Origin: a bacterium
GTDB taxonomy: Bacteria > Myxococcota > UBA727 > JAUIJE01
DNA length: 64,000 bases
NCBI GenBank assembly: GCA_030431455.1
Contig: JAUIJE010000015.1
Span: 124,001 to 188,000 of the forward strand
Direction: 5' to 3'
This document shows, in pieces, positions 32,044-37,036 of the stretch; the first letter of the stretch is position 1; each line of letters opens with the position of its first letter. A program made the position numbers and the translations under genes. The notes beneath the pieces were generated by a model that saw only the letters and a program-made list of their open reading frames with translations, had not been told where the DNA came from and searched no databases.

Positions 32044-32054
<11 letters not shown>

Positions 32055-32901
32055 CGCCGCTCAGGTGGGCCACCACCTGGCCGATGACCCCGCGATCAAC
32101 CACGATGCGCTCGTGCCCGAGGCCGGGGGTTTCGACGAGGGTCACGTGGGGCATGGGCCGGAGCACGGCCGCGGTCCGTTCGAACGACGCTTCGGGGTCT
32201 TCCGGGGCGTGCAATGCCAATGTCTCTGTGTGGCGCAACCCCGCGAGCAAGGGCAGGCCGATCACCTCGGGGGCCAGGCCCGAGGCCTCCACGATCCATT
32301 CTTCGACCTCGTGGGCCGCGGCGTCGGGCAGGCCGAAGCGCGCCTGAAACTCATCCACCACCGCCTGCATGTGCGCGGGCGCGGACAGCAACGCGAGGCG
32401 CAGCCCCTTTGTCCGGGCCTGGTCCGGACCCCACTGGGCCGCCACCACCGCGCAGGCCATGCCCCCCAGCGAGTGGCCCACCAGGCCCACGACGTCGTCG
32501 CACCGCTCCGCCACCGCCCGCAGCCCCGCGGCGTGAAACAACAGGTTGCTGGTGGTGCCCGTGGCCCGGCCGTGGGCCGGCGCGTCGAACACCGCCACCG
32601 AAAAGCCCGCCTTCTGCAGCGGCTTGAGCCAGAGCCGCCAAATGGCACTGGACACGGCCCAGCCGTGGGCACACACCACCGTGCCCCGGTCGCCGCCGGC
32701 AAAGTGCCACATCGGCACCCGGTACTCGCCCACGTCGAGAACGGTGGACTCGGCCTTTTGCACGAACCGGTCAAAGGCGGCGTCGGACCCCACCGCGACC
32801 TTGGGCGGGGTGCAGAACGGCTTGACCGTTCCCGAGAGGCCGAGGTCGCGGGGGCGCAGGTCCTGGCCGATGTGGCCCGCGGCGTGGGGTTTGCTATCCA
32901 C
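32044..32901 (-). CDS. Alpha/beta-hydrolase
   Basis: 285 residues. The nucleophile elbow GHSLGG contains Ser144; the oxyanion-side HG motif is VVCAHGWAVSS, and the C-terminal catalytic His is in TPGLGHERIV. No signal peptide. It overlaps the upstream Tim44-like gene by eight bases, making it the last gene of the five-gene operon that starts with the SctJ-like lipoprotein. Substrate unknown; it is similar in plan to the hydrolase at 39035. Confidence 0.88.
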
Positions 32902-34516
32902 GATAAGACTCGTCCTGTTCGATCCGGCTCAGCACCCAATCGAAGTCACCCTTGGTGATGGTGCTGCCGCAGTAGGCGCACTCGCCGGCCATGTTGACCT
33001 CGAGGGCCGCGCCGCAGCTCGGGCAGTTGGCCTCGGTGGTGGTGGCCTTCTTCACCCCCGCGCGCCGGATCAAGGTCCAGTATTCGGAGTAGGCGCGGGC
33101 GAGGTGGGCGTCGCCCCCCACCACCTTCCCGGTGTCGTCCGAGGTGGTGTAGTCCTTGGCCCGGGCGTACACCCGCAATGTGATGGCATCGTAGAACCGA
33201 TCCGAGGACACCTTGCATAGGTCGAGCCGGCCGAGCTGGGCGTCGTCCATGTGGTTGGTAAGGCGCTGCTTTTGGTACTCCTCGATCCAATAACGTTGGG
33301 ATTGGAACAGCTCGTTGGTCAAAAACGGCCTCGCCTTCTCCCAGCGTTTGCCCACCCAGGCCTGGTTGAGCGCGCCGTAGATGAGCCGGACGCGGTCTTG
33401 GAACTGGAGGTAGTCAAACTGGGGGTCCCGGGCCTTGAGCGCATCGAGTTTGGTGGTGGCGGCAGGGTCTTTGATCGTGGGCAGGTTGGTGCCGCGCTCG
33501 GGCACGGTGCCGGTGAGCTGGGGTTGCCGGCCGGACTTCTCCAGCTGGATCACGTCGGTGACGACCCAATCGTATTCGCCGGTGTCCACCCGCTGTCCAC
33601 AGTATTGGCAGACTCCGTGACCGGATTGTTCTTGGGCCGCGCCGCAGGCCGGGCACTGGTGGATCGAGACCTCGTCGGGGCTCTTGGTGGTCACGTTGTT
33701 TTGGCGCCGAAGCGTCCACTGCTCGACGACGTAGTAGTTCTGGGTGCGGCCCCCGGCGTCGACCTCGGTGTAGTTCGCTTCGAAGCGCGTGGTCACCGTG
33801 GTCTGGCCCTGTGGGGGGCCCGCGCCCTGGACGGACACGATGTTCATCGCGCCCACGATCACCCCGCGCACGTCTTGCACCGGGCCGAGGCCGCCCAAGA
33901 CCCGGCGCGCGGGCTCGGTGATGTAGGGCGCGAGCAAGTCGAGCTTCCCGTCGCCGCGGGCCTCGTGGGCCTTGGCGAACAGGGTGTACAGAAAGTCCTC
34001 GAACAGCGGGCGCGAGAAGTTCGGGTCTTGCTGCGCGATGGCGTCGAGGGCCGCGGTCGGGGCGCCCGCCGGGGCCACCCCCGCTTGGGCCAACGCTTGG
34101 TTGATCTGGGGGGTGAGGTTGCTCTGCAAGAACGCGCCGAACCGGTCCGCCACGTCGCTGCGGTTGGTGCTGCCCCCCGACGACCAACCCGACGACGGGC
34201 TGACCGTCTTTTTGGCGAAGTACGTGAGCACCACCGCGATCACCAACAGCGGCACGCCCACCACCGGATGCTGGAACGCCAACACCACCAGCCGGAACAA
34301 CAGCCAAATCAGGATGCCGCCGTCGCCGCTCCCCGAGCTGCTGCTGCCGCTGGAAAAACCACCCCGCGAGCCGCCCGAAAAGCCGCCCCCGGAGTAGCTC
34401 TGGCCGCCGCCGGGCCGGGCCAGGGCCTCCACCGCAAAAAACGCCCCCGCCGCGGCCACCACCACCGCAAAGCGATGGCGCGTCCACCACAGGGACAAGC
34501 GCAGGAGCCCGTTCAC
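32894..34516 (-). CDS. Membrane protein with two Tim44-like domains and two zinc ribbons
   Basis: 540 residues. N-terminal hydrophobic segment (about 14-34), a Gly/Ser-rich linker (GGGFSGGSRGGFSSGSSSS), a second membrane segment (about 68-100), then two consecutive modules. Each module is a helical-beta domain resembling the Tim44-like lipid-binding domain (for example DPNFSRPLFEDFLYTLFAKAHEA and DPQFDYLQFQDRVRLIYGALNQA) followed by a four-Cys zinc ribbon (CPACG...CQYCG near residue 286 and CPSCG...CAYCG near 495). The internal duplication is clear. Bacterial Tim44-like proteins bind membranes; the ribbons suggest protein or nucleic-acid contacts. Overlaps neighbours on both sides. Confidence 0.82.
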   Translation of the reverse strand: MNGLLRLSLWWTRHRFAVVVAAAGAFFAVEALARPGGGQSYSGGGFSGGSRGGFSSGSSSSGSGDGGILIWLLFRLVVLAFQHPVVGVPLLVIAVVLTYFAKKTVSPSSGWSSGGSTNRSDVADRFGAFLQSNLTPQINQALAQAGVAPAGAPTAALDAIAQQDPNFSRPLFEDFLYTLFAKAHEARGDGKLDLLAPYITEPARRVLGGLGPVQDVRGVIVGAMNIVSVQGAGPPQGQTTVTTRFEANYTEVDAGGRTQNYYVVEQWTLRRQNNVTTKSPDEVSIHQCPACGAAQEQSGHGVCQYCGQRVDTGEYDWVVTDVIQLEKSGRQPQLTGTVPERGTNLPTIKDPAATTKLDALKARDPQFDYLQFQDRVRLIYGALNQAWVGKRWEKARPFLTNELFQSQRYWIEEYQKQRLTNHMDDAQLGRLDLCKVSSDRFYDAITLRVYARAKDYTTSDDTGKVVGGDAHLARAYSEYWTLIRRAGVKKATTTEANCPSCGAALEVNMAGECAYCGSTITKGDFDWVLSRIEQDESYRG

Positions 34517-36158: not shown

Positions 36159-36172
36159 GCGGGCTCAGCCTC

Positions 36173-37036
36173 CTATGGTTCGCGCCGCGCTTTTTTGAGC
36201 GCGTTGACCTCGCTCTCGGCCTTGGAGAGCTTCTTCGACAAGCTGAGCGAGCGGATGATGCCGAAGATGCCGAGCACCAGCCCGAGCACGGCCAGGCCCC
36301 CGAGGGCGCCGAGGATGCCTTTCAGCTTGGTCCCGGCTTTCTTGTGCGCGACGGAGATGCCCATGATCTTCTCGCCGACGGCCTGGACCCCGTCCTCTTT
36401 TTCGGCCTGCGTGCCGACGAGGAACATCTCGGGATCGTTGGCCTTCATCAGCACCTGCACGTTGTCGGACTTGAGGTCCTCCACTGCGGCCGCGATCAGA
36501 TCTTTGATCTCTTGCTCGGTGGCCGGCGGCTGGCCCTTGGGCCCGCCGTTGTAGACGACCATCACCGACGCGGTGGCCGGCGGGGGCGGGGTGTCGAGGT
36601 CACGGATGATGTCCTTGTCCGGCACCACCACCGAGACGTGCGCTTCTTGCACCCCGGGGAGCTTTTTGAGCTTGCGCTCGAGCTCGCCTTGCATGGCCAT
36701 CAAAAACTTCGCCTTCTCTTCGCTCTTGGTCGGAATCAGGCCGCCCCCGCCGGCGGGATAGACCTCGGCCAGCCCGTTGGCGCGGGTGCGCGGCAGGTGG
36801 TTTTTCACCAACAGCGACAACGCCCGCTGGGAATCGCCTTCGCCCACGACGATGGCCCAGGTGACCACCCGGCCTTCCTCTTTGAGTTTCATCGCGGAGA
36901 TGTCTTCCTCGCCGAGCACGACCAAAATCTCATTGGCTTCGAGCTCCGTGAGCCCGTGCACAATGTCGAGCTGGCCTTCGCAGGCGCTCAGCACCGAGAG
37001 CAAGAACAGACAAACGAGTGCGCGCGTGGTTCGCAC
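36173..37036 (-). CDS. sctJ: Type III secretion inner-membrane ring lipoprotein, SctJ/YscJ family
   Basis: 287 residues from GTG 37036, with AGGAGG five bases upstream; longer in-frame extensions are unlikely. Lipobox LSAC with Cys19, then the two ring-building motifs of the YscJ/FliF family: LTELEANEILVVLGEEDISA with LVKNHLPR, and ELERKLKKLPGVQEAHVSVVVPDKD with ASVMVVYN. One C-terminal membrane helix (about residues 235-260) is followed by a short basic tail. Size and lipobox fit injectisome SctJ rather than flagellar FliF (over 500 residues). In T3SS this protein forms the inner ring in the inner membrane. No other sct gene is present here; it heads an operon with a FliG-like gene. Confidence 0.88.
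   Translation of the reverse strand: MRTTRALVCLFLLSVLSACEGQLDIVHGLTELEANEILVVLGEEDISAMKLKEEGRVVTWAIVVGEGDSQRALSLLVKNHLPRTRANGLAEVYPAGGGGLIPTKSEEKAKFLMAMQGELERKLKKLPGVQEAHVSVVVPDKDIIRDLDTPPPPATASVMVVYNGGPKGQPPATEQEIKDLIAAAVEDLKSDNVQVLMKANDPEMFLVGTQAEKEDGVQAVGEKIMGISVAHKKAGTKLKGILGALGGLAVLGLVLGIFGIIRSLSLSKKLSKAESEVNALKKARREP

Follow-up and report, generated by a model that had tools for sequence, protein, structure and literature searches.

Organization of the locus

The window analysed here (the whole stretch of 64,000 nucleotides) lies on contig C23 of a 7.7 Mb genome assembled in 28 contigs and 96.9% complete. Five open reading frames occupy its minus strand at the coordinates given in a preliminary description, and the junctions of +14, -4, -4 and -8 bases were likewise confirmed. 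The first gene, sctJ (36173-37036), codes for the 287-aa inner-membrane ring lipoprotein of a non-flagellar type III secretion system (T3SS) and is followed by a gene for a FliG-like protein of 338 aa (35142-36158). Downstream lie genes for a TPM-domain-like membrane protein (34513-35145; E = 7.7e-4, 19.9 bits, just under the Pfam cut-off of 22.1), a membrane protein with zinc ribbons and two Tim44-like domains (32894-34516; two stretches matching Pfam PF04280, 5.2e-22) and an alpha/beta hydrolase (32044-32901; Pfam Abhydrolase_6, 4.1e-13). The gene overlaps imply co-transcription. No sigma-70-like site was detected in a promoter scan, and terminator-like sites were found near chance level.

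On the plus strand, a multi-pass membrane-protein ORF (37284-38150) diverges from sctJ. No Pfam match was obtained for it; it was conserved next to sctJ at loci L033, L113/L093, L094 and L092 and, from this conservation, is possibly a further component of the secretion system discussed below. Very long Gly-Asp (GDGDGD) repeats, preceded by a lipoprotein-like signal, mark secreted-type ORFs at 30528-32054 of the window and at C18:698276-700120 of the same genome.

Identity of SctJ and of its FliG-like partner

SctJ starts with GTG at 37036 and displays an LSAC lipobox. Profile TIGR02544 (E = 1.2e-42) was favoured over the FliF profile TIGR00206 (E = 6.5e-10); its score of 145.8 bits fell just below the NCBI equivalog cut-off of 161.95, and the Pfam YscJ_FliF match (E = 9.6e-21) exceeded its cut-off. 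The closest solved relatives were PrgK, EscJ and MxiJ. The injectisome type proposed in the preliminary description is upheld. Exactly two YscJ_FliF proteins occurred in the genome, namely the SctJ of the window and the flagellar FliF.

The FliG-like protein matched FliG_M (E = 4e-8) and FliG_C (E = 1.7e-6), both above the Pfam gathering cut-offs. It scored only 18.5 bits with the flagellar switch equivalog TIGR00207 (cut-off 226.7) and is thus a FliG homologue rather than a flagellar FliG. Each of the two domains was recognized in 14 of the 20 family members, and a profile of these 20 members matched FliG alone among PDB sequences (best Aquifex FliG, 1.1e-13). The structure was confidently predicted (mean pLDDT 89.4, pTM 0.74), and the best 13 matches in a fold search with it were all FliG. 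Whole-chain TM-scores of these matches were low (0.2-0.3), as would result from a different placement of the domains, and single-domain FliG_M matches reached target-normalised values of up to 0.7. The preliminary description had regarded the partner of SctJ as a flagellar-type FliG-like protein, a view that would not have survived if profiles had revealed no relation of 35142-36158 to FliG; FliG_M and FliG_C were matched, and FliG came out best in both sequence and fold searches. It was also right in considering the mix of SctJ with a FliG-like protein as non-standard.

In the EHPQ-type loop, E93 was invariant (20/20) and P95 was conserved in 17/20 members. Torque-ridge positions were followed in E. 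coli FliG numbering: the one matching D289 was acidic in none of the 20 members and the one matching D288 in nine, while an arginine matched R297 in 16. The family profile scored 36-58 bits with flagellar FliG of Myxococcota and 44-54 bits with FliG of Aquifex, Thermotoga and Helicobacter; these similar scores indicate no special closeness of the family to the flagellar FliG of its own phylum. An old split from flagellar FliG would be consistent with this, as far as can be judged from bit scores, which are not a tree. No match to SctK was found in NCBIfam or among the PDB fold matches listed. PRK05934, a type III secretion family that is presumably chlamydial, matched the FliG-like family very weakly (best E = 0.013).

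Distribution of the pair in Myxococcota

When profiles of both proteins were run over 195 Myxococcota genomes (E<=0.001), FliG-like proteins were recorded in 124 genomes and SctJ in 164, a few of the matches being flagellar FliG or FliF. The FliG-like gene was located directly 3' of sctJ and on the same strand in 114 of the 120 genomes with a clear FliG-like match, with 10-286 bases between the profile matches of adjacent pairs. In the remaining six, the genes were apart in three (two truly, one possibly owing to contig ends) and no SctJ was listed in three. Within the same order as the window genome, the FliG-like gene was away from sctJ in G013 and G014, and neither protein was found in G012 (92% complete), where a SctV with 85% identity was present. 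Across this order, SctV sequences were 67-85% identical and their frames were open. A contig search with the SctJ alignment yielded nine loci; one with the single FliG-like protein yielded no match.

The co-occurrence that the preliminary description proposed to search for was recovered for part of the locus: sctJ and the FliG-like gene co-occur in other Myxococcota, but relatives of the TPM, Tim44/zinc-ribbon and hydrolase genes were absent near the pair in every fetched locus of relatives. Only the first two genes travel together, and the other three are local neighbours of the pair, not conserved parts of a five-gene unit.

Some neighbourhoods displayed particular features. In small-genome relatives, a gene for an MltA-type lytic transglycosylase overlaps the end of the FliG-like gene (L035:590-1837, L036:7402-8676), and in L036 tsf and rpsB lie on the other side of sctJ. 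Locus L097 (JABDBI010000014.1), labelled 'Euryarchaeota archaeon', carries a bacterial sctJ-fliG-like-tsf-rpsB arrangement and looks mislabelled.

Outside the order, the pair was encountered inside T3SS clusters. The reference system is the needleless T3SS* of M. xanthus (MXAN_2434-2464; PMC10433427, PMC12075869), which corresponds to the 'long' myxobacterial NF-T3SS of Abby and Rocha (PMC3459982). In the genomes that we read as Myxococcus-type (family f18, genus g64; an assignment based in part on gene content), the order SctI-SctJ-[FliG-like]-SctL-SctN-SctO-SctP-SctQ-FliO-SctR-S-T-U-...-SctV agrees with the published M. xanthus cluster (PMC10433427), and several TPR proteins are also encoded. 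The FliG-like protein of this cluster has 742 aa with a repeat tail; a Myxococcus-type FliG-like protein, used as a single query, found the window protein as best match in the window genome (2.7e-24). The tail (L074:18439-20667) is long and of low complexity, with repeated 'ERSRVAEGSRVHA' units. Several deep Myxococcota families also had the pair inside a T3SS* cluster; G194, G189, G191, G125 and G171 displayed SctJ-FliG-like-SctL-SctN, or the same order with parts beyond the stretch read. The short myxobacterial T3SS locus is organized as SctI-SctJ-SctL-SctN and is devoid of a FliG-like gene (G181). Flagellar operons of the same phylum read FliF-FliG-FliH-FliI, an order that SctJ-[FliG-like]-SctL-SctN of T3SS* matches gene by gene.

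A dispersed non-flagellar T3SS in the window genome

A genome-wide search for sct and fli genes, suggested in the preliminary description, uncovered a flagellum on contig C18 and a scattered non-flagellar set. YscJ_FliF, FlhA/SctV (FHIPEP), FliP/SctR and FlhB/SctU each occurred twice, one copy belonging to the C18 flagellar cluster and the other lying outside it. The C18 cluster contained FlgB, FlgC, FliF, FliG, FliH and FliI genes, as recognized by sequence, position and homology. The second set comprised an isolated SctV (C25:126551-128722), of the SctV type since TIGR01399 was favoured over FlhA; FliO-SctR-SctS-SctT (C11:98030-100729); SctU followed by a 159-aa ORF on C10; SctN-SctO behind an FHA-FHA-TM membrane protein (C11:228536-232784); and an SctP-like protein with SctQ (C7:138687-141108). 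An export gate SctR-S-T-U-V distinct from the flagellar one is thus encoded by the second copies outside C18, and SctJ, SctN with its stalk SctO and the C-ring protein SctQ of T3SS* are all present. The SctN was 66-67% identical to that of the Myxococcus-type T3SS*, and SctQ displayed a FliM-like domain (PF02154, 1e-9). The FHA-FHA-TM protein beside SctN matched Yop-YscD_cpl and is a candidate SctD. For SctL, no locus was identified in this genome. The surroundings of the T3SS loci, as far as read, showed no gene for a secretin, needle or translocon, except for a type IV pilus set with a secretin near SctU; this pilM-N-O-P-Q-like set (C10:47147-53218) lies about 5 kb upstream of sctU.

The non-flagellar genes were spread over at least six loci on five contigs (C23, C25, C11 twice, C10 and C7) instead of forming the single cluster that is usual for T3SS*, although not required for its function. 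All of these loci had unrelated genes on either side and lay within contigs of 190-370 kb, so that the scattering is not an assembly effect. It extends to other members of the order, as SctV and SctJ were on different contigs in G001, G008, G010 and G014 and 93 kb apart in G002. No SctJ was found beside the scattered gate, SctN-SctO and SctP-SctQ loci. The second set being devoid of its own SctJ, the pair in the window is its missing ring. The preliminary description had noted the absence of other T3SS genes, which holds within the five-gene locus but not genome-wide, and had set against its own reading a complete T3SS or flagellar cluster elsewhere in the genome lacking exactly these two genes; the scattered set largely corresponds to the latter, and the claim of an isolated ring with no T3SS is overturned.

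Conservation of the pair was also independent of a flagellum. Genomes G002, G008 and G010 (99, 96 and 93% complete) all kept SctV, SctJ and the FliG-like protein; FlhA was not found in these three by a search that did find it in G000, G001 and G013. Retention in relatives without FlhA indicates that the FliG-like protein serves the T3SS and not the flagellum. In M. xanthus, an NF-T3SS is listed and no flagellar T3SS genes are (PMC9380563).

Proposed role and alternative explanations

FliG links FliF to FliM in the flagellum. Membership of a T3SS, adjacency of the genes, fold family and conservation without a flagellum were observed directly for the pair studied here, and we consider it likely that it represents the inner ring and a FliG-homologue adaptor of a gene-dispersed needleless T3SS, the adaptor occupying the fliG/sctK slot and connecting the SctJ ring with the SctQ C-ring. 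The export gate SctR-S-T-U-V would be encircled by an inner-membrane ring of SctJ. Under this ring would sit the FliG-like protein, its N-domain holding the short cytoplasmic tail of SctJ and its middle domain the FliM-like part of SctQ. It would so tie the ring to the cytoplasmic SctQ/SctL/SctN complex, which would feed substrates to the gate. Such protein contacts would give it the structural role of FliG in the flagellum, which is also the supposed role of SctK in injectisomes. T3SS* acts in prey lysis (PMC12075869, PMC10433427), in M. xanthus together with the Kil pilus (PMC12075869), and by analogy the system of the window genome may be used in attacking prey as well.

The preliminary description favoured a reduced ring machine with a new job, such as a scaffold or sensor. 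The five-gene locus indeed contains no other T3SS gene, but the other parts of a non-flagellar T3SS are encoded in the genome, which has no further SctJ, and other families have the pair within T3SS clusters; a stand-alone ring is accordingly very unlikely and was dropped once the second T3SS set, lacking only the ring, had been found. A role as accessory switch protein in the flagellum of the organism itself is less probable still. A flagellar cluster that includes FliF and FliG of its own does exist in the genome, and the proteins are homologous, yet the FliG-like gene adjoins SctJ rather than FliF, flagellar FliG genes lie in separate FliF-FliG-FliH-FliI operons, and the FliG-like protein is kept in near-complete relatives without FlhA, on which ground this candidate was rejected. 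The gene overlaps that imply co-transcription could speak for a single functional unit of all five genes, in which the TPM and Tim44/zinc-ribbon proteins would protect the membrane protein of the ring; this is improbable, and it was abandoned because the three other genes are not conserved, no relative of them being near the pair in any fetched locus.

Dispersal of the genes might also reflect components that have ceased to act together. A decaying relic would account for the dispersal, for the SctL not located in the window genome and for G012, which seems to be without SctJ and the FliG-like protein. However, SctV keeps open frames and 67-85% identity throughout the order, T3SS parts are retained in genomes of 1.3-1.8 Mb, and none of the T3SS matches in the window genome contains an internal stop, which makes decay quite improbable. 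A ring driven by a stator, in a machine that rotates or switches, might be suspected from the full-length FliG fold with its C-terminal domain and from the arginine matching R297 in 16/20 members. Yet the D289-matching position is acidic in 0/20 and the D288-matching one in 9/20, and the loci read showed no neighbouring stator gene; since the charged torque residues are not conserved together, such a rotor is most unlikely.

Relation to known systems

The system of the window genome and T3SS* of M. xanthus have the SctJ, SctN, SctO, SctQ, FliO-SctR-S-T, SctU and SctV families in common, and Myxococcus-type clusters also carry a FliG-like gene after sctJ; one cluster there contrasts with at least six loci here. 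With flagellar FliG, the FliG-like protein shares the FliG_M and FliG_C domains, the fold and the operon place (between the ring gene and the gene for FliH/SctL). It differs in having SctJ and not FliF as partner, in an extra C-terminal helical region (residues 250-338) and in not retaining the acidic pair of the torque ridge. In injectisomes, the slot after sctJ and before sctL is that of sctK (YscK/MxiK/OrgA). The FliG-like gene occupies the same slot, but no sequence or fold match between the two proteins was found; a 'FliG-like role' was once proposed for SctK, with a question mark (PMC4045390). The chlamydial FliF-FliG fusion (PMC4768692) likewise ties a FliG middle domain to an SctJ/FliF-type ring in an injectisome genome; it is fused and FliF-derived, in contrast to the separate gene next to a true SctJ described here.

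To our knowledge, FliG is usually listed as a flagellar hallmark that injectisomes lack. The main evolutionary study stated that the myxobacterial system lacks FliG (PMC3459982) and the part list of T3SS* contains no FliG-like component (PMC10433427). In 2025, FliO was described for the non-flagellar T3SS of myxobacteria (PMC12403147). No FliG homologue of a myxobacterial T3SS was found in the accessible literature, although prior notice in the 2022 Cell Reports paper on M. xanthus T3SS* is possible. The finding is a known system with a conserved component absent from accessible published parts lists. Tentatively, and with somewhat more doubt than confidence, the long myxobacterial T3SS might have kept FliG from the flagellar ancestor and represent the missing intermediate between flagellum and injectisome; the flagellar-type joint would then consist of the FliG-like protein and an SctQ with a FliM-like domain, and SctK would be the diverged or replaced counterpart of the former.

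The scattering of the genes is also a warning that surveys relying on gene clusters will overlook systems of this kind. With a FliG homologue found across the phylum in the sctK slot, the list of parts of an actively studied predation machine grows by one, and genetics in a tractable organism can target its gene directly. It also makes testable the old guess that SctK is the counterpart of FliG, an equivalence that is unproven.
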